A stretch of DNA of 64,000 bases, taken from positions 5,270,001-5,334,000 of the forward strand of contig NZ_CP107931.1 in assembly GCF_036023875.1 (NCBI RefSeq). Direction: 5' to 3'. The notes beneath the pieces were generated by a model that saw only the letters and a program-made list of their open reading frames with translations, searched no databases and had not been told where the DNA came from. Origin of the DNA: Mycobacterium sp. NBC_00419. GTDB taxonomy: Bacteria; Actinomycetota; Actinomycetes; Mycobacteriales; Mycobacteriaceae. How positions within the stretch are numbered: the first letter of the stretch is position 1; each line of letters begins with the position of its first letter. The translations under genes were made by a program, and so were the position numbers. Below are positions 1,552 through 55,986 of this stretch, piece by piece.

Positions 1552-2484
1552 GTGCTGCATCTGCGGGTGATTGCTCCGGTCGATCTGCGCGACGAGGTGG
1601 TCGGCGTGCTGCGGCGCCACCCCGGGGTGACGCATCTGGTCGTGCACCGCGACGCGGCACTGGAGCCCGCCGGTGACGAGATCAGCGCCGACATCGCCAG
1701 GGAAAGCGCCAACGACGTCGTCGACGACCTCAAGGCCCTCGGCTTGCACAGCCGCGGCGCGATCACCCTCGACGTCGTCGACACCGTCGTCTCAACCGCG
1801 GCCTACCGGGCCGAGAAAGAGGCCGACGGCGACCCGGGCGACGCCATCGTGTGGGAGGAACTCGCCGCCCGCACCCGCGAGGAGTCCACGCTCAACATCA
1901 CATTCCTGTTGTTCCTGTGCCTGGCATGCATGATCGCCGCCGTCGGTGTCGTCACCGACTCCCCGGTGACCGTCGTCGGCGCGATGGTCGTCGGCCCCGA
2001 GTTCGGGCCGCTGGCCGCGCTGGCGGTCGCGCTGGTGCGCCGCAGGCTCGACCTGGCCCGCCGGGCCTCGATCGCCCTTCTGGTGGGCTTCCCGGTCGCC
2101 ATGGCGGCCACCGCGGCGTTCGTGCTCGGTGGTGAGGCGCTGGGCTGGATCCAGTTGCAGAGCACCCGTCAGCTCGATGAGGTGGACTTCATCTTCCAGA
2201 TCGGCCCGCTGTCGTTCGTGGTGGCACTGCTGGCCGGTGCGGCGGGCATGCTGTCGCTGGTGTCCGCCAAATCCGCCGCACTGGTGGGAGTGTTCATCTC
2301 GGTGACCACGGTGCCCGCCGCCGGCTTCGCCGTCGTCGCGGCGTCGGTGGGGGACTGGGACATCGCCGTCGAGTCGGCCGCTCAGCTGCTGCTCAACCTG
2401 GTCGGGATCACGGTGGCCGGCGTGCTGGTGCTCGCGGTTCGGCGCCGCCACGCCAGCCGGCACCGGCAGGTTAGGGCACACTGA
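1552..2484 (+). CDS. DUF389 family membrane protein
   Basis: A 310-residue protein of the DUF389 (TIGR00341-like) family. Residues 1-100 form a soluble domain. From about residue 118 there are roughly six hydrophobic segments, the first pair containing the conserved TDSPVTVVGAMVVGPEFGPL stretch that is typical of this family's hairpin. The biochemical role is not established; transport has been suggested for the family because of its multi-pass membrane core. The start is the GTG at 1552. It is divergent from a small membrane protein gene, and the two may share the 41-base gap as a promoter region. Confidence 0.85.
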   Translation: MLHLRVIAPVDLRDEVVGVLRRHPGVTHLVVHRDAALEPAGDEISADIARESANDVVDDLKALGLHSRGAITLDVVDTVVSTAAYRAEKEADGDPGDAIVWEELAARTREESTLNITFLLFLCLACMIAAVGVVTDSPVTVVGAMVVGPEFGPLAALAVALVRRRLDLARRASIALLVGFPVAMAATAAFVLGGEALGWIQLQSTRQLDEVDFIFQIGPLSFVVALLAGAAGMLSLVSAKSAALVGVFISVTTVPAAGFAVVAASVGDWDIAVESAAQLLLNLVGITVAGVLVLAVRRRHASRHRQVRAH

Positions 2485-2545: not shown

Positions 2546-5500
2546 ATGGGTATCAAAGTGGCGCTGGAGCACCGGACCAGCTACACCTTCGATCGGTTGG
2601 TCGAGGTGCATCCGCACGTGGTCAGGCTTCGACCGGCACCGCACAGCCGCACGCCCATCGAGGCGTACTCGCTGGAGGTCGAACCCGCCGACCACTTCAT
2701 CAACTGGCAGCAGGACGCATTCGGCAACTTCCTGGGCCGGCTGGTGTTTCCCAGTCGCACCCGGCAGCTGACCATCAAGGTCGGTCTGATCGCCGACCTC
2801 AAGGTCATCAACCCGTTCGACTTCTTCATCGAGGACTACGCCGAGACCTATCCGTTCGCCTATCCCAAGGCCCTCAAGGACGACCTCGAGCCCTACCTGC
2901 GTCCGGTCGACGAGGGTGACGAAGGTTCCGGGCCCGGCGACCTCGTCGGGTCCTGGGTGCGGGACTTCTCCGTACCGCCGGGCACCCGCACCATCGACTT
3001 CCTCGTCGCGCTGAACCGGGCGGTCAACGCCGACGTCGGCTACAGCGTGCGCATGGAGGCGGGGGTGCAGACCCCCGACCACACGTTGCGCAGCGCCATC
3101 GGATCCTGCCGCGACTCGGCCTGGCTGCTGGTGTCGATCCTGCGCCAACTCGGCCTGGCCGCCCGATTCGTGTCGGGCTATCTGGTGCAGCTGTCCTCCG
3201 ACGTCGAAGCTCTCGACGGGCCGTCGGGCCCGGAGGCCGACTTCACCGACCTGCATGCCTGGACCGAGGTCTACATTCCCGGCGCCGGCTGGATCGGACT
3301 GGACCCCACCTCGGGATTGTTCGCCGGCGAGGGGCACATCCCGCTGGCCGCCACCCCGCACCCGTCCTCGGCGGCGCCCATCACCGGCGCCACCGGCGTG
3401 GCCGAGACCACGCTGGACTTCTCCAACACCGTCACCCGCGTGCACGAGGACCCGCGCGTCACGCTGCCCTACACCGATGCCGCCTGGGCGGCCATCAACG
3501 AGCTGGGGCTGCGCATCGACCGGCGCCTCACCGACGCCGACGTGCGGCTGACCATGGGCGGCGAGCCGACGTTCGTCTCGGTGGACAACCAGGTCGACGA
3601 CGAGTGGAACACCGCCGCCGACGGCCCGCACAAGCGCGAGCGCGCCTCCGCGCTGGCGGCGCGGCTCAAGGCGGTGTGGGCGCCCTACGGTCTGGTGCAG
3701 CGCAACCAGGGCAAGTGGTATCCGGGAGAACCGTTGCCGCGCTGGCAGATCGGACTGCATTGGCGCCGTGACGGCCAACCGCTGTGGAGTGACGCCTCGC
3801 TGCTGGCCGACCCGTGGGGCCCCGAGCGTTACGACACCGAACCGCTGGCCGCCCAGCAGGTGCTCTCGGTGGTCGCCGCGAGCCTGGGCCTGCCCGCCAC
3901 CCAGGTGCGCCCGGCCTACGAGGACCCGCTGAGCCGACTGGCCAGCGCGGTGCGGCTGCCTGCGGGCGAGGCGGTCGAGGCTAGCGACGACCTGGCGGCC
4001 GATGCACCCGAGGCCCGGGCCGGACTGCTGGCCCGGCTCGAGGAGCCCGTCGCCGAGCCGGCCGCTTACGTGCTTCCGGTGCATCGCAGCGACGACGACT
4101 CCTCGTGGGCCAGTGCCGACTGGCGCCTGCGCCGGGGCCGCGTCGTGCTGTTGGACGGGGACTCGCCCGCCGGGCTGCGACTGCCGCTGAACTCGATCAG
4201 CTGGCGCCCGCCGCGCAGCACCTTCCCTGACGATCCGATCGCCACCGCCGCGGCCGACCTGCTCGTCGGCCCGGACGGCGCGGACGCCGTCCTGGAGGAC
4301 CCGGAGACCGCGCCGACCACCGCGATGGTCGCCGAGGTGCGCGACGGGGTGCTCTACATCTTCATGCCGCCGACCGACAAGCTCGACCACTTCGTCGACC
4401 TGATCGCACGGGTTGAGGCCGCCGCGGCCAAAGTCGGCTGCCCGCTGGTGGTCGAGGGCTACGGCCCGCCGTCGGATGCCCGCCTGGAGTCGATGTCGAT
4501 CACCCCCGACCCGGGTGTCATCGAGGTCAACGTGGCGCCCAGCGCCGGTTTCGCCGAGCAGCGCCAGCAACTGGAGACGCTCTACGAGGAAGCCCGCAAG
4601 GCCCGGCTGTCCACCGAGTCGTTCGATTTCGACGGCACCCACGGCGGCACCGGCGGCGGCAACCACATCACGCTCGGCGGCATCACCCCGGCGGACTCTC
4701 CGCTGCTGCGCCGCCCCGACCTGCTGGTGTCGCTGCTGACCTATTGGCAGCGCCATCCGGCCCTGTCCTATCTGTTCGCGGGCCGCTTCATCGGGACCAC
4801 CTCGCAGGCGCCCCGCGTCGACGAGGGCCGCTCCGAGGCGCTCTACGAACTGGAGATCGCGTTCGCCGAGATCGCCCGGCTGACCGCCTCAGGTGCGCCC
4901 GCTGCGTGGATCACCGACCGGGCCCTGCGCCACCTGCTCACCGACATCACCGGCAACACCCACCGCGCCGAGTTCTGCATCGACAAGCTCTACAGCCCGG
5001 ACAGCCCGCGCGGACGCCTGGGCATCCTGGAGCTGCGCGGCTTCGAGATGCCGCCGCACTTCCAGATGGCCATGGTGCAGTCGCTGCTGGTGCGCTCGCT
5101 CGTGGCATGGTTCTGGAACCAGCCGCTGCAGGCGCCACTGATCCGCCACGACCTCAACCTGCATGGTCGATACCTGTTGCCGCACTTCATTATTCACGAC
5201 ATCGCCGATGTCTGCGCCGAACTGCGGAGCCACGGCATCGACTTCGACACCAGCTGGCTGGACCCGTTCACCGAGTTCCGCTTCCCCCGCATCGGCACCG
5301 CCGTCTTCGACCACGTCGAGATCGAACTTCGGGGTGCCATCGAGCCGTGGAACACCCTCGGCGAGGAATCCGCAGGCGGCGGTACCGCCCGCTACGTCGA
5401 CTCCTCCGTCGAGCGCATCCAGGTGCGCACCGTCGGCGCCGACCGGCAGCGCCACGTCCTCACCTGCAACGGCTATCCCATCCCGATGCTGGCCACCGAC

Positions 5501-5860
5501 AATCCCGACGTCCAGGTCGGCGGGGTGCGCTACCGGGCCTGGCAGCCGCCGAGCGCCCTGCACCCGACGATCACCGTGGACGGACCGCTGCGCTTCGAAT
5601 TGGTCGACGTCGCCAGCGGGACATCGCGCGGCGGATGCACGTATCACGTGTCCCATCCCGGCGGACGCGCCTACGACAGCCCACCGGTCAACGCCGTGGA
5701 AGCCGAATCCCGGCGCGGGCGGCGCTTCGAGGCCACCGGCTTCACGCCCGGCAAGGTCGACGTGGCCGACCTCCGGGAGAAGCAGGCTCGCCAGTCCACC
5801 GATGTCGGCGCGCCGGGAATCCTCGACATGCGCCGGGTGCGTACCGTGCTGCAGAACTGA
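2546..5860 (+). CDS. transglutaminase-like protease domain fused to DUF2126
   Basis: A 1104-residue two-part protein. Residues 1-110 are the bacterial transglutaminase N-terminal region. The transglutaminase core follows, with a plausible catalytic triad Cys188 (in GSCRDSAWLL), His237 (DLHAWTEV) and Asp253 (GLDPTSGL). From about residue 320 to the end is DUF2126, marked by MGGEPTF at 337 and a glycine-rich GGTGGGNHITLGG motif near 700. In-frame starts also exist at 2528 (GTG) and 2531, but the ATG at 2546 (MGIKVALEH) gives the N-terminus usual for the family. The stop TGA overlaps the next gene's ATG, so translation is coupled with the ATP-grasp/alpha-E partner. Comparative genomics has proposed peptide synthesis or amide modification for such clusters. 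No substrate is known to me. Confidence 0.9.
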   Translation: MGIKVALEHRTSYTFDRLVEVHPHVVRLRPAPHSRTPIEAYSLEVEPADHFINWQQDAFGNFLGRLVFPSRTRQLTIKVGLIADLKVINPFDFFIEDYAETYPFAYPKALKDDLEPYLRPVDEGDEGSGPGDLVGSWVRDFSVPPGTRTIDFLVALNRAVNADVGYSVRMEAGVQTPDHTLRSAIGSCRDSAWLLVSILRQLGLAARFVSGYLVQLSSDVEALDGPSGPEADFTDLHAWTEVYIPGAGWIGLDPTSGLFAGEGHIPLAATPHPSSAAPITGATGVAETTLDFSNTVTRVHEDPRVTLPYTDAAWAAINELGLRIDRRLTDADVRLTMGGEPTFVSVDNQVDDEWNTAADGPHKRERASALAARLKAVWAPYGLVQRNQGKWYPGEPLPRWQIGLHWRRDGQPLWSDASLLADPWGPERYDTEPLAAQQVLSVVAASLGLPATQVRPAYEDPLSRLASAVRLPAGEAVEASDDLAADAPEARAGLLARLEEPVAEPAAYVLPVHRSDDDSSWASADWRLRRGRVVLLDGDSPAGLRLPLNSISWRPPRSTFPDDPIATAAADLLVGPDGADAVLEDPETAPTTAMVAEVRDGVLYIFMPPTDKLDHFVDLIARVEAAAAKVGCPLVVEGYGPPSDARLESMSITPDPGVIEVNVAPSAGFAEQRQQLETLYEEARKARLSTESFDFDGTHGGTGGGNHITLGGITPADSPLLRRPDLLVSLLTYWQRHPALSYLFAGRFIGTTSQAPRVDEGRSEALYELEIAFAEIARLTASGAPAAWITDRALRHLLTDITGNTHRAEFCIDKLYSPDSPRGRLGILELRGFEMPPHFQMAMVQSLLVRSLVAWFWNQPLQAPLIRHDLNLHGRYLLPHFIIHDIADVCAELRSHGIDFDTSWLDPFTEFRFPRIGTAVFDHVEIELRGAIEPWNTLGEESAGGGTARYVDSSVERIQVRTVGADRQRHVLTCNGYPIPMLATDNPDVQVGGVRYRAWQPPSALHPTITVDGPLRFELVDVASGTSRGGCTYHVSHPGGRAYDSPPVNAVEAESRRGRRFEATGFTPGKVDVADLREKQARQSTDVGAPGILDMRRVRTVLQN

Positions 5861-8631
5861 TGGGGTCGCCGACCCGGGCGCTGTCCGGGTCGGAGCCAAC
5901 CGTAGGTTTGCAGGAGTCACAGAGGTGGTTGAAACAGGAGGTGGGGCCGTTGTCGCTGTCGGCTGCCGGCTCTGACCTCAGCCGGCCCAGCCACGACCCG
6001 GACCGCCTGCTCGCGGGCTATCGAGCCGCCCGTGCGCAGGAGCCGCTGTTCGACCTGCGCGGTGGCGGCCCGGGGGCTTTCGGGCATTTCGGCAGCACCG
6101 GCTACGACGAGTTCGTCGACGCCACCGGCACCGTCCGGCCGTCGTGGCAGGAACTCGGCGATCTGATCGGTGAACGCGGCCGGGCCGGGCTGGACCGGCT
6201 GCGCGGCGTGGTGCGTGGTCTGGTCGACAACGACGGCATCACCTACATCGAGATCGACCGGCACGGTGAGGCCGTCACCAACAACCAGGGCATCTCCCTG
6301 CCGGGGCCCTGGCATCTCGACGGCATCCCACTGCTGCTGTCGGCCGCCGACTGGGACATTCTGGAAGCCGGGGTGGTGCAACGCTCCAGGCTGCTCGACG
6401 CCGTGCTGTCCGATCTCTACGGCCCGCGCCGGGCACTCACCAGCGGCATCCTGCCGCCGCAGCTGCTGTTCGCCCATCCCGGCTACATCCGGGCCGCCCG
6501 CGGTATCGAGAACCCGGGTCGCCATCAGCTGTTCATGCATGGCTGCGACCTGAGCCGGGCCGCAGACGGCCGGTTCCTGATCAATGCGGACTGGACCCAG
6601 GCGCCCTCGGGGGCGGGCTATGCGGTCGCCGACCGCCGGGTGGTTGCCCATGCCATCCCCGATGTCTACGAGCGGATCGGCCCGCGACCGGTGTCGCCGT
6701 TCGCCCAGGCGCTGCGGCTGGCCCTCATCGATGCCGCACCGGATGCCGCCGAGGATCCCGTGGTGGTGGTGCTCTCGCCCGGTATCCACTCCGAGACGGC
6801 GTTCGACCAGGCCTATCTGGCGTCGGTGCTGGGTTTCCCCCTGGTCGAAAGTGCGGACCTGGTGGTCCGCGACGGCAAGCTGTGGATGCGCTCGCTGGGC
6901 ACCCTCAAGCGGGTGGACGTGGTGCTGCGCCGGGTCGACGCCGAGTACGCCGATCCGCTGGACCTGCGCCCGGATTCCCGCCTCGGTGTGGTGGGCCTGG
7001 TCGAGGTGCAGCGCCGTGGGGCGGTCACCGTTGTCAACACCCTCGGTGCGGGGATCTTGGAAAGCCCAGGGCTGCAACGGTTCCTGCCGCAACTCGCGGA
7101 GCGGCTGCTGGGGGAGAAGCCGCTGCTGGACACCCCGCAGTTGTACTGGGGCGGATTCGACAGGGAACGTCAGCACCTGCTGTCGCGATTGTCGTCGTTG
7201 TTGATCAAGTCGACGGTCGGACCCGAGACGCTCGTCGGTCCGGCCCTGTCGGCCGCCGAGCGCGAGCAGGTCGCGGCCCGCATCGAGGCGCAGCCCTGGC
7301 AGTGGGTGGGCCAGGAACTGCCGCAGTTCTCCTCGGCGCCCACCGACCACTACCCGGGAGCGCTGTCGGCCGTCAGCGTCGGGATGCGCCTGTTCACCGT
7401 GTCCCAGCGCGGCGGATACGCCCCGATGGTGGGCGGTCTCGGCTACGTTCTCGCCCCCGGTAACGCGGCCTACAAGCTCAACAGTGTTGCCGCCAAAGAT
7501 CTTTGGGTGCGTCCGCCGACGCGGGCCAAGGCCGAGACGATCACCGTCCCGTCGGTGGAGTTGCCCAGCGGCACCCGCTTCATCAGTTCGCCGCGTGTGC
7601 TGTCGGACCTGTTCTGGATGGGTCGGTACGCCGAGCGCACCGAGCACCTAGCGCGGCTGCTGATCGTCACCCGCGAGCGCTATCACGAGTACCGCTACCG
7701 CCAGGACATGGAAGGCAGCGAGTGCGTGCCGGTGCTTCTGGGTGCGCTCGAACAAGTCACCGGAACCGATTCGGCGACAACGACTTCCTACGCCGAGACG
7801 GTGGCAGGCGCCCAGCGCACGCTGTGGTCGCTGACCGCCGACCGGCAGCGGCCGGGCTCGTTGGCGCAGTCCATCGAAGGTCTGGGCCTGGCGGCGCGTT
7901 CGGTACGTGACCAGATGTCCAACGACACCTGGATGGTTCTCGGCGGCGTCGAGCGGGCGCTGGCTCAGCAGGCGGGCTCACCGCCCTCACCGCAACGTGG
8001 GTCACGGGTCGCCGACGACACCCAGTTGGCCGCCGCGCAGCAGCAGACACTGGCCGGCATGCTCGCGCTGTCCGGTGTCGCCGCCGAGTCGATGGTCCAC
8101 GACGCCGGCTGGATGATGATGGATATCGGCAAGCGCATCGAACGCGGGCTGGGGCTGACTGCCCTGCTGCGGGTGACCCTGACCGTCGAGCGCAGCCCGG
8201 GCGCCGAGCAGACCATCACCGAATCCGCTCTCGTGGCGTGTGAGTCCTCGGTGCTCTACCGGCGCCGCAACCTGGGCAAGGTTAGTGTGGCTGCCGTGGC
8301 CGACCTCGTGCTGTTCGACGGGGAGAACCCGCGATCACTGGTCTTCCAGCTGGAACGACTGCGTACCGACCTGCGGGCGCTGCCCGGTGCCTCGGGATCG
8401 TCGCGGCCGGAGCGCATCGTCGACGAGATCAGCACCCGGCTCCGTCGACTCGATCCCGCCGAGCTGGAAGAGGTCGACGACGAGGGGCACCGGGCCGAAT
8501 TGGACGGCCTGCTCAAGGGTGTGGAGATCGGGCTGCGTGAGCTGTCCGACATCATCACCCGTACTCAGCTGTCGCTGCCGGGCGGCATGCAGCCGCTGTG
8601 GGGACCCGACCAGCGCCGGGTGGTGCCGTGA
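5860..8631 (+). CDS. circularly permuted ATP-grasp (DUF404/DUF407) fused to alpha-E domain (DUF403)
   Basis: A 923-residue fusion. Residues ~70-540 are a circularly permuted ATP-grasp ligase, recognisable from WHLDGIPLLLSAADW, SPGIHSETAFDQAYLA, FPLVESADLVVRDG and the VTVVNTLGAGILESPGLQ segment. ATP-grasp enzymes usually join a carboxylate to an amine with ATP. From about residue 575 (SDLFWMGRYAERTEHLARLL) to the end is the helical alpha-E domain, which normally accompanies such ligases and has no assigned chemistry. In many bacteria the two are separate genes; here they are one. The ATG at 5860 overlaps the preceding stop. The ~70-residue N-terminal lead is less conserved-looking, so a later start is possible. 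Confidence 0.9.
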   Translation: MGSPTRALSGSEPTVGLQESQRWLKQEVGPLSLSAAGSDLSRPSHDPDRLLAGYRAARAQEPLFDLRGGGPGAFGHFGSTGYDEFVDATGTVRPSWQELGDLIGERGRAGLDRLRGVVRGLVDNDGITYIEIDRHGEAVTNNQGISLPGPWHLDGIPLLLSAADWDILEAGVVQRSRLLDAVLSDLYGPRRALTSGILPPQLLFAHPGYIRAARGIENPGRHQLFMHGCDLSRAADGRFLINADWTQAPSGAGYAVADRRVVAHAIPDVYERIGPRPVSPFAQALRLALIDAAPDAAEDPVVVVLSPGIHSETAFDQAYLASVLGFPLVESADLVVRDGKLWMRSLGTLKRVDVVLRRVDAEYADPLDLRPDSRLGVVGLVEVQRRGAVTVVNTLGAGILESPGLQRFLPQLAERLLGEKPLLDTPQLYWGGFDRERQHLLSRLSSLLIKSTVGPETLVGPALSAAEREQVAARIEAQPWQWVGQELPQFSSAPTDHYPGALSAVSVGMRLFTVSQRGGYAPMVGGLGYVLAPGNAAYKLNSVAAKDLWVRPPTRAKAETITVPSVELPSGTRFISSPRVLSDLFWMGRYAERTEHLARLLIVTRERYHEYRYRQDMEGSECVPVLLGALEQVTGTDSATTTSYAETVAGAQRTLWSLTADRQRPGSLAQSIEGLGLAARSVRDQMSNDTWMVLGGVERALAQQAGSPPSPQRGSRVADDTQLAAAQQQTLAGMLALSGVAAESMVHDAGWMMMDIGKRIERGLGLTALLRVTLTVERSPGAEQTITESALVACESSVLYRRRNLGKVSVAAVADLVLFDGENPRSLVFQLERLRTDLRALPGASGSSRPERIVDEISTRLRRLDPAELEEVDDEGHRAELDGLLKGVEIGLRELSDIITRTQLSLPGGMQPLWGPDQRRVVP

Positions 8632-8634
8632 GCG

Positions 8635-8716
8635 GGGGACCGGCGGGCTGGAGCGAAGCGACTGGGGGATGGGGACCGGCGGGCTGGAGCGAAGCGACTG
8701 GGGGGTGGGGACCAGC
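8635..8716 (+). repeat. 36-bp tandem repeat, 2.3 copies, abutting a start codon
   Basis: Copies at 8635-8670 and 8671-8706 are identical at 35 of 36 positions. A third copy is cut after 10 bases (8707-8716), exactly where the ATG of the next gene begins. Each full copy contains the core gggctggagcgaagcgac (8645-8662 and 8681-8698), which recurs almost unchanged at 42301-42318 and 50532-50549. The array fills the whole gap between two genes that would otherwise nearly touch, and its G-rich end supplies the only ribosome-binding-like sequence for the downstream start. Confidence 0.9.
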
Positions 8717-9646
8717 ATGAGCTTCCCCGACGGTCCCACCCCGGCGCTCAACAGCCGGGTGTACCGCATCACCCACCGCACCGAGTACAGCTATTCCGAT
8801 GTGGTGACCAGTTCCTACGGCCGCGGGCACCTCACCCCCCGCGACACCGCGCGCCAGCGCTGCGTGACCAATGCCCTCGAGATCGATCCCGAGCCGGCCG
8901 ACCGGTCCACCAGCCGCGACGTCTACGGGAACATCAGCTCCTACTTCCACGTCACCGAGCGCCACCACGCGCTGACGGTGACCAGCAACTCCGTCGTCGA
9001 GGTCGACCCGCCGCCCGCCGAACTCTACGACGGCGGTTCGGCTCTGGCGCCGTGGGAATCGGCCCGCCCGGTCGGTCGCGACGGCGTGCTGGCGTGCGAG
9101 TTCACCCTTGATCTACGCCCGCCGGAGATCAGCGACGCGGTGCGTGACTACGCCGCGCCCAGTTTCGAGCCGGGCCGCCCGCTCGTCGAGGTGCTGCGCG
9201 ATCTCAACGCCCGAATTTTTTCCGATTTCACCTATAAATCCGGTTCCACGACGGTGTCCACGCAGGTAGGCCAGGTTTTGAAAGCCCGAGAAGGGGTATG
9301 TCAGGACTTCGCCCGGCTGGCGATCGCCTGCCTGCGCGCCAACGGTTTGGCGGCGAGTTATGTGTCGGGATACCTCGCGACCGACCCGCCGCCGGGGAAG
9401 GAACGGATGTTCGGGGTCGACGCCACGCACGCCTGGGCCGCGGTGTGGACGCCGCAGAACCACTGGGTCGGACTCGATCCGACCAACGACCAGCTGATCG
9501 ACGAGCGCTACATCATCGTCGGCTGGGGTAGGGACTATGCCGACGTGCCACCGCTGCGCGGCATCATCTACACCGATTCCGAACACAGCGTCATCGACGT
9601 CTCGGTCGACGTCGCCCCGTTCGAGGGGGGTGTGCTGCATGCGTGA
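8717..9646 (+). CDS. transglutaminase-like cysteine protease family protein
   Basis: A 309-residue stand-alone member of the bacterial transglutaminase-like family. The N-terminal ~100 residues (YRITHRTEYSYSDVV) are the usual beta-rich N-terminal domain. The core carries the expected triad: Cys195 (GVCQDFARL), His238 (ATHAWAAV) and Asp254 (GLDPTNDQ). It is a smaller relative of the DUF2126 fusion encoded upstream, so the cluster holds two transglutaminase cores. The ATG at 8717 follows the 36-bp repeat array directly. Its last eight bases overlap the start of the metallopeptidase gene, suggesting translational coupling. Such enzymes can act as amidases, peptidases or acyltransferases; which applies here is not visible. 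Confidence 0.92.
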   Translation: MSFPDGPTPALNSRVYRITHRTEYSYSDVVTSSYGRGHLTPRDTARQRCVTNALEIDPEPADRSTSRDVYGNISSYFHVTERHHALTVTSNSVVEVDPPPAELYDGGSALAPWESARPVGRDGVLACEFTLDLRPPEISDAVRDYAAPSFEPGRPLVEVLRDLNARIFSDFTYKSGSTTVSTQVGQVLKAREGVCQDFARLAIACLRANGLAASYVSGYLATDPPPGKERMFGVDATHAWAAVWTPQNHWVGLDPTNDQLIDERYIIVGWGRDYADVPPLRGIIYTDSEHSVIDVSVDVAPFEGGVLHA

Positions 9647-10679
9647 CTTCATCTGTCCCAACTGCGGCCAGCACCTGGCCTTCGAGAATTCGGTGTGCCT
9701 GTCGTGCGGCCGGTCGGTGGGGTTCTCCCTGGAGGATGAGACCTTCCTGGTGATCGCCTCCGGTACCGAGAGTGAACACGGCGGTGCCGTCGACGCCGCC
9801 GAATATCAGCTGTGTGCGAATCTTCATCTGGCCGAATGCAATTGGCTGGTCAAGGTGCAGCCGGTGCGGGCCTTGTGTGCCTCATGCAGGTTGACGCGCA
9901 CCAGGCCCAAAGACGACGACACCGCCGCGTTGGCGGCCTTCGCGGTGGCCGAGCGGGCCAAGCGCCGGCTGATCGCCGAGTTGCACGAGATCGGTCTGCC
10001 GATCGTGGGCCGCGACGAGGATCCGGACTACGGGCTGGCGTTCGACCTGCTCTCCAGTGCAACCGAGAAGGTCTTCACCGGCCACGACAACGGGGTGATC
10101 ACCCTCGATCTGGCCGAGGGCGACGATGTGCACCGCGAGCAGTTGCGCATCGAGATGGACGAGCCGTACCGAACCCTGCTCGGTCACTTCCGCCACGAGG
10201 TCGGGCACTACTACTTCTACCGGCTGGTCGACCGGTCACCGGAATACCGGAAGCAGTTCAACGACTTGTTCGGCGATCCCGACGCCGACTATCAGCAGGC
10301 GCTGGACCGGCATTACAGCCAGGGGCCGCCCGCGGGCTGGGCGAAGACCTATGTGTCGTCCTACGCCACGATGCATCCTGCCGAGGACTGGGCCGAGACA
10401 TTCGCCCACTATCTGCACATCCGCGACACGCTGGACACCGCCGCGTCATTCGGGCTCGCCCCGGCGAACGCGACCCTCCAGCGCAAAGTGTTGGGGCCCA
10501 GCGGCTTCGACACGATCATCCAGATGTGGTTGCCGCTGGCGTGGTCGTTGAACATGGTGAACCGCTCGATGGGCAAAGACGACCTCTATCCGTTCGTACT
10601 GCCCGTTCCGGTGCTGGAGAAGATGCGCTTCATCCACACCGTGATCGACGAGGTGGTCAGCGAGGCGCAAGTCCGTTGA
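9639..10679 (+). CDS. zinc-ribbon putative zinc-binding metallopeptidase
   Basis: A 346-residue cytosolic-looking protein. The N-terminus is a zinc ribbon with Cys6, Cys9, Cys20 and Cys23. The remainder resembles the putative zinc-binding metallopeptidase family (Peptidase_Mx type). It has the active-site motif HEVGH (His186-Glu187-His190) and a later DWAETFAHY segment that probably supplies a further metal ligand. It starts within the end of the transglutaminase gene and is the last member of the ATP-grasp/alpha-E cluster. A peptidase could mature or release the product, which is inference. The 3' end overlaps by 23 bases the convergent LGFP gene. Confidence 0.88.
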   Translation: MRDFICPNCGQHLAFENSVCLSCGRSVGFSLEDETFLVIASGTESEHGGAVDAAEYQLCANLHLAECNWLVKVQPVRALCASCRLTRTRPKDDDTAALAAFAVAERAKRRLIAELHEIGLPIVGRDEDPDYGLAFDLLSSATEKVFTGHDNGVITLDLAEGDDVHREQLRIEMDEPYRTLLGHFRHEVGHYYFYRLVDRSPEYRKQFNDLFGDPDADYQQALDRHYSQGPPAGWAKTYVSSYATMHPAEDWAETFAHYLHIRDTLDTAASFGLAPANATLQRKVLGPSGFDTIIQMWLPLAWSLNMVNRSMGKDDLYPFVLPVPVLEKMRFIHTVIDEVVSEAQVR

Positions 10680-55374: not shown

Positions 55375-55904
55375 CCTTCGTGCTCGCACTGGTTCTGCTG
55401 ATCGCAGTACTGGTACTCGGTGGATTCGTGGTGGGCTACAACAAGGTTCGCGCCGCCGACGTCCGCGTCGACGAGGCGCTCGGCGGCATCGACGTGCAGC
55501 TGACCCGCCGCGCCTCGCTGATCCCCAGCCTGGTCAGCACGGTGCAGACCTTCGCAGGCCACGAGAAGGCGATCCTCGATCACGTCGCCGATGCGCAGGC
55601 CGCCCTGTCGGCGGCGACGAGCGGTAAGTCGGTGGCGCAGCGCGGTTCGGCGGAGAAAGAGTTCGACACCGCCGTCGGGCAGGTGCTGGCACTGGGCCAG
55701 AATTACCCGCAGCTCAACTCGTCGAACAACTTCTTGAACCTGCAGCAGAACTTGGCCGACACCGAGGACAAACTGGCCTTCGCCCGGCAGTACTACAACG
55801 ACGCGGTCGCCGGAGTGAACCGGCTCACCACCACGATCCCGTGGATGTTCGTGGCCGGCATGGCCGGGGTGAAGCAGCGCGAGTTCTACCAGGTGCCGCG
55901 ATGA
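55368..55904 (+). CDS. LemA family protein
   Basis: A 178-residue LemA-family protein: one N-terminal transmembrane helix (VLALVLLIAVLVLGGFVVGY) and a long helical bundle. NKVRAADVRVDEALGGIDVQLTRR (in two parts) and RASLIPSLVSTVQTFAGHEK are the conserved region, and FARQYYNDAVAGVNRLTTTIP the C-terminal signature. It overlaps the DUF2207 gene and is probably its partner in the envelope. Its last codons form the beginning of a 48-bp tandem duplication. The biochemical role of LemA is not known. Confidence 0.92.
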   Translation: MVTFVLALVLLIAVLVLGGFVVGYNKVRAADVRVDEALGGIDVQLTRRASLIPSLVSTVQTFAGHEKAILDHVADAQAALSAATSGKSVAQRGSAEKEFDTAVGQVLALGQNYPQLNSSNNFLNLQQNLADTEDKLAFARQYYNDAVAGVNRLTTTIPWMFVAGMAGVKQREFYQVPR

Positions 55905-55986
55905 GCGCCTGCGCGAAGAGTCGGCACCTCATCGGCGGAGGTGCCGCGATGAGCGCCTGCGCGAAGAGTCGGCACCTCATCGGCGA
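55891..55986. repeat. 48-bp tandem duplication with internal palindrome
   Basis: Copies at 55891-55938 and 55939-55986 are identical except at the last base. Each contains aggtgcc and its complement ggcacct around a ~25-base loop, plus gatgag and ctcatc as further arms, so each copy can fold into a hairpin. The first copy supplies the last three codons and stop of the LemA gene. The second ends 17 bases before the fmt start. It could act as a double terminator or be a small mobile palindrome. Confidence 0.85.

Follow-up and report, generated by a model that had tools for sequence, protein, structure and literature searches.

Here we analysed a 64,000-nt stretch of DNA (the window; positions 5,270,001-5,334,000 of the 5.6-Mb single-contig genome of Mycobacterium sp. 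NBC_00419), in which four genes, A to D, occupy positions 2546-10679, all on the plus strand, and encode a transglutaminase-like protein fused to DUF2126 (A), a circularly permuted ATP-grasp fused to alpha-E (B), a second transglutaminase-like protein (C) and a zinc-ribbon peptidase (D). The closest named protein relatives of this genome belong to Mycobacterium. The ATP-grasp part of B has lost the ExNxR motif, and an intact stand-alone counterpart is encoded elsewhere in the same genome. We propose, tentatively and with somewhat less than even confidence, that this cluster forms the accessory half of an amidoligase system spread over two loci, which would make and break amides in the cytosol, with B as a pseudo-ligase partner and A as an optional glutamine synthetase (GS)-like ligase. 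The wider proposal, in which B belongs to a conserved ATP-grasp pseudoenzyme family of five phyla that lost the motif, gained a signature of its own and acts, with transglutaminases and a peptidase, as a subunit that regulates or scaffolds an intact paralogue from another part of the genome, appears to us evenly balanced.

Relatives were sought with five aligned A sequences, which gave at least 565 confirmed matches, and the best 80 of these were kept as loci, with phyla assigned from record titles. First, the ExNxR motif, which is the metal and acyl-phosphate site in ATP-grasp enzymes, was missing in 56/56 fused ATP-grasp/alpha-E proteins (B of the window and 55 relatives from the loci), whereas it was kept, ahead of PSG, in 31/31 stand-alone circularly permuted ATP-grasp paralogues, a comparison set drawn from the same loci and this genome (L003). 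The fused alignment consisted of the window protein and the 40 of 55 locus sequences that passed a length filter; the motif was found in 0/41 of these proteins (33 non-mycobacterial and 8 mycobacterial, including the window), and the remaining 15, inspected separately, were also without it. One further candidate for the stand-alone set (L087_7766) proved to be a fusion cut short by the end of its contig, and its rejection reduced that set from 32 to 31. Alignments labelled A2-A5 held 51, 38, 33 and 17 sequences out of 79, 41, 50 and 21 locus sequences, respectively. The Gly-rich loop was deleted in the 8 mycobacterial fused proteins (window B included) and degraded in most others, with G403 kept in 12 and G405 in 1 of the 33 non-mycobacterial proteins. 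At the motif site, the fused proteins share D-R-x-Q, or A-D-W-x-Q in mycobacteria, and because these replacement residues are conserved, the fused family has probably retained a function of its own.

Gene B (PF14403/PF04174 and PF04168; mean predicted local distance difference test (pLDDT) score of the model 84.6) is recognized as a circularly permuted ATP-grasp by both its Pfam CP_ATPgrasp domain and its fold, and comparison of its alpha-E domain with the PDB gave generic helical matches only. It differs from glutathionylspermidine synthetase/amidase and E. coli YgiC/YjfC (PDB 2io7, 7uk8, 7uk6; identity 9-13%) by the absence of ExNxR, and a putative glutathionylspermidine synthase of Methylobacillus flagellatus (3n6x), unlike B, keeps EDNLR and is hence of the stand-alone type. 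The first-pass annotation of the window had described all catalytic motifs as intact, which was correct for the triads of A and C and the zinc site of D but not for B, where ExNxR and the Gly-rich loop are gone, and its premise that ATP-grasp enzymes form amide bonds is probably inapplicable to a protein that lost the motif. If B were an active ligase, the four genes could form one complete peptide-modifying pathway, which we regard as very unlikely, because ExNxR separates fused (0/56) from stand-alone (31/31) proteins and because A is missing from genomes that have D and two alpha-E matches. Alternatively, B may be an enzyme with changed chemistry, in which D-R/W-x-Q replaces the metal motif and nucleotide is still used, for example for transfer or level sensing. 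Conservation of the replacement residues across phyla, also in mycobacteria without A, and the persistence of K546, D547 and Q485 are in line with this, but the loss of the Gly-rich loop in mycobacterial fused proteins, its degradation in most others and the lack of a known nucleotide activity make it unlikely in our opinion. We rather favor B as a non-catalytic (pseudo) ATP-grasp, which would probably pair with the stand-alone ligase or the transglutaminases and place or regulate them. The literature searched, which did not cover the survey of Iyer et al. 2009, was not found to describe the fused ATP-grasp as inactive, and the novelty of this observation is unproven.

Second, an intact stand-alone ATP-grasp with alpha-E and a transglutaminase was found at ~837.7-841.2 kb of the same genome, and this operon would be the other half of the proposed system. 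Its ATP-grasp gene lies on the minus strand at L003:7528-9192. When fused and stand-alone forms were checked for pairing, which covered 30 of the 80 loci, all 30 genomes had a fused-type match and 29 of them also had a separate motif-bearing stand-alone copy; in seven of the stand-alone-type matches, the aligned part contains a single stop codon. Environmental relatives with both forms include the methylotroph Methylophilus (L103) and Mycolicibacterium rhodesiae (L058). In addition, the flanks of 24/36 pseudomonadotal loci contain stand-alone ATP-grasp or alpha-E genes. Since catalysis has probably been lost in one ATP-grasp form while an intact form is encoded elsewhere in the genome, the comparison shows which protein should be assayed and which pairs should be co-purified. 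A GS-like gene (PF00120 match, 833579-834604) was also observed near the stand-alone operon (L003, G000:C1:832000-848000).

Third, the A-B-C set recurs in loci of five phyla. In loci where both flanks of A extended over 8 kb or more, B was found in the flank of 10/10 mycobacterial, 8/8 other actinobacterial, 15/23 pseudomonadotal, 5/8 bacteroidotal and 1/1 other loci, and one further bacteroidotal locus (L112) has a B labelled by its ATP-grasp part only. D was found in 10 mycobacterial, 5 other actinobacterial, 2 pseudomonadotal, 1 bacteroidotal and 0 other of these well-flanked loci, and Anbu in 12/23 pseudomonadotal ones and none elsewhere. Across 119 Actinomycetota genomes, DUF2126 was detected in 6, Peptidase_Mx above the cut-off in 7 (those six included) and alpha-E in 20. 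As for other neighbors of A, a conserved ~410-aa protein without a Pfam match flanks it in 12 pseudomonadotal loci (including L103:19419-20675), and a citrate synthase gene follows it in four Methylococcales loci (L091, L094, L098, L099).

Within 148 Mycobacterium genomes, which are related and not independent, so that P values from their counts are descriptive, DUF2126 was present in 90, Peptidase_Mx in 121 and alpha-E in 130. Three of the 90 have a short or decayed DUF2126 (G150, G239, G265) and were set aside; each of the other 87 genomes gave two or more alpha-E matches, and D was present in 86 of them. In some of the 87 (e.g. G156, G226, G247, G284), A lies in several pieces or frames, and having A is therefore not equal to having a working A. 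The distance between A and D was ≤12 kb in 79/85 genomes with both placed (5 had them on different contigs and 1 far apart), and the 79 close pairs were on the same strand in 51 cases and on opposite strands in 28. Co-occurrence in related genomes, to which the first-pass annotation had looked as a check, was thus found both for A-B-C across phyla and for D near A. The same-strand order, from which it had argued for a single pathway, is not special.

Inside the cluster, the sole candidate ligase would be the DUF2126 part of A, to which a papain-like transglutaminase domain is fused. Gene A matched PF08379, PF01841 and PF09899 (DUF2126, 1152 bits), and its triad C188/H237/D253 was invariant in 51/51 aligned relatives. 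Structure modelling of DUF2126, which had been suggested earlier as a check, gave a GS fold (mean pLDDT of the A model 79.6), alike to the Glutamine synthetase/GmaS/Dop fold family, and the make-and-break arrangement of glutathionylspermidine synthetase/amidase is comparable to that proposed for A. The same architecture was described in 2008 for the transglutaminase-ligase fusion family, exemplified by M. tuberculosis Rv2566 (PMC2588565); the available part of that paper covers the fusion protein, includes neither the B pseudo-ligase nor D, and names no product. Anbu-type ATP-grasp/alpha-E/transglutaminase operons are also in print (PMC5666114, PMC6376114, as far as their available text goes), and the earlier view of the cluster as the best candidate in the window for an undescribed system was therefore too strong.

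Gene C (PF08379 and PF01841) is, like A, transglutaminase-like by both its domain and its Cys-His-Asp triad, and C195/H238/D254 was invariant in 33/33 aligned relatives. Gene D (PF10005 and PF15887) fits Peptidase_Mx by family match, HExxH, further conserved His/Glu and zinc-ribbon Cys, with eight Cys and H186/E187/H190/H246/E249/E253 invariant in 17/17 aligned relatives. The triad of C and the HEVGH of D (186-190) were located exactly where they had been placed before. In the proposed system, C would hydrolyse or transfer the amide, and D, as a cytosolic zinc peptidase, would trim the peptide. A second Peptidase_Mx paralogue lies away from the cluster (G000:C1:2477207-2477935, L056), where no adjoining ligase gene was recognized by eye. 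M. tuberculosis Rv2569c is presumably the orthologue of C. In the text available to us, Rv2569c was called a cell-wall serine protease, which cleaves casein and E-cadherin and is blocked by 4-(2-aminoethyl)benzenesulfonyl fluoride (AEBSF) or phenylmethylsulfonyl fluoride (PMSF) but not by E-64 or N-ethylmaleimide (PLoS Pathogens, PMC11081392). A phenotype for Rv2569c is thus in print, though it is at odds with the protein family. Based on the reported location and substrates, C could be an extracellular protease acting on host proteins; we consider this highly improbable, because the inhibitor profile misfits an invariant catalytic Cys, no hydrophobic leader stretch was found in C, and genes related to C lie next to gene A in several phyla of environmental bacteria.

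The Anbu-type operon shares three domain families (transglutaminase, ATP-grasp and alpha-E) with the window cluster, and in the accessible parts of PMC5666114 and PMC6376114 peptide synthesis or tagging is proposed for it and phosphate release from ATP by its ATP-grasp protein is reported in one of the two. The window cluster differs in that ATP-grasp and alpha-E are fused, the motif is lost, and a DUF2126 fusion and an Mx peptidase are added. None of genes A-D is PF00227, and no Anbu relative was found in the flanks of 19 mycobacterial loci, the rest of the genome not having been searched. It is conceivable, but quite unlikely, that the cluster acts in protein tagging and degradation, in the way suggested for Anbu operons, D then standing in for Anbu. 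Anbu (one member typed PF00227) was found in 15/36 pseudomonadotal and 0/31 actinobacterial loci, and D is common where Anbu is absent (17/19 mycobacterial and 5/12 other actinobacterial loci), in line with such a replacement; however, locus L132 has both, D resembles a small zinc peptidase and not a compartment protease, and PMC2588565, in the part available, reports no small Pup-like or tag-like gene near the Rv2566 family, none having been searched for here.

Published regulation points to nitrogen limitation, as far as the available text of the sources shows. Raised Anbu expression under nitrogen limitation is cited in PMC5666114 and PMC6376114, and in a Burkholderia cenocepacia ntrC mutant the DUF404/407, DUF403, transglutaminase and large transglutaminase-like genes were down 6.0- to 9.4-fold (PMC5491218), the large transglutaminase-like protein probably being a relative of A. 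The products of the two-locus system would likely be gamma-glutamyl or peptide-amine amides, used under nitrogen shortage. To the best of our knowledge, no product of such clusters has been reported, and the searched portions of the ATP-grasp/alpha-E/transglutaminase literature give none despite predictions since 2008-2009.

Several observations weigh against the two-locus reading. One metagenome-assembled genome (G129) carries the fused copy but gave no match of the stand-alone type, and 10/50 well-flanked loci have A without a recognizable nearby B (11 were listed, less L112). The DUF2126 profile gave hhalign probabilities of 0.3% versus GCS2 and 0.1% versus GS, without a significant profile match, and one GS glutamate position, judged by eye, reads T342 in DUF2126. 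Several residues of the nucleotide site are retained in B (K450, mostly K/R; Q485; R510; K546; D547), and B may therefore still bind ATP. One simple pattern for a GlnR-like box gave no match in the region upstream of A, and the nitrogen evidence derives from other phyla. Particularly, 31/148 Mycobacterium genomes have an unbroken D and two alpha-E matches, which are no proof of a fused gene, but no A (33 before G225 and G265, with broken D matches, were set aside). When six A-less loci were opened, B, C and D were still adjacent in all of them, although the ATP-grasp match was split in two pieces in L232; in L234 a remnant of A, 100 residues long, is left, and L231 lacks A between B and a gene judged by eye to be DUF389. 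Thus, B, C and D stay together while A can be separated from them, so that the product of A is not always needed; co-occurrence of the genes is borne out, but the earlier view of a single four-gene pathway is weakened if that pathway is taken as obligate. Mycobacteria without A but with the rest can be used as natural knock-outs for metabolite comparison.

The gene models and Pfam matches bore out the four same-strand genes and their domain assignments (Table 1). The overlapping ends that had been described are present between A and B (1 nt) and between C and D (8 nt); B and C, in contrast, are separated by 85 nt, most of which belong to a 36-bp tandem repeat. The 21-base core of the repeat has 42 genomic occurrences at ≤2 mismatches (reversed control, 0), and the repeat resembles a mycobacterial interspersed repeat (MIRU). 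In 16/42 related loci with same-strand B and C, the longest reading frame of C starts 4 nt inside the end of B, and the repeat looks set into such an overlapping junction. No membrane-spanning stretch was found in the cluster proteins. The DUF389 gene directly upstream of A is probably a neighbor rather than a cluster member; a DUF389 match is upstream of A in 8/80 related loci (7 mycobacteria and 1 Williamsia).

Table 1 Features of the cluster and its surroundings (window positions)
Feature	Position	Strand	Remark
DUF389 membrane protein gene	1552..2484	+	directly upstream of gene A
Gene A	2546..5860	+	1104 aa; fusion of a transglutaminase-like domain with DUF2126
Gene A transglutaminase core	2990..3307	+	triad C188/H237/D253
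Gene A DUF2126 domain	3401..5833	+	glutamine-synthetase-like fold in model
Gene B	5860..8631	+	923 aa; fusion of a circularly permuted ATP-grasp with alpha-E
Lost ExNxR site, codons 243-247 of gene B	6586..6600	+	A243-D-W245-T-Q247 instead
Gene B alpha-E helical domain	7591..8565	+	Pfam
36-bp tandem repeat	8635..8713	+	2.2 copies, between B and C
Gene C	8717..9646	+	309 aa; transglutaminase-like; triad C195/H238/D254
Gene D	9639..10679	+	346 aa; zinc ribbons and Peptidase_Mx, HEVGH 186-190

Elsewhere in the window, a 48-bp unit is present in two perfect head-to-tail copies at 55891-55985.
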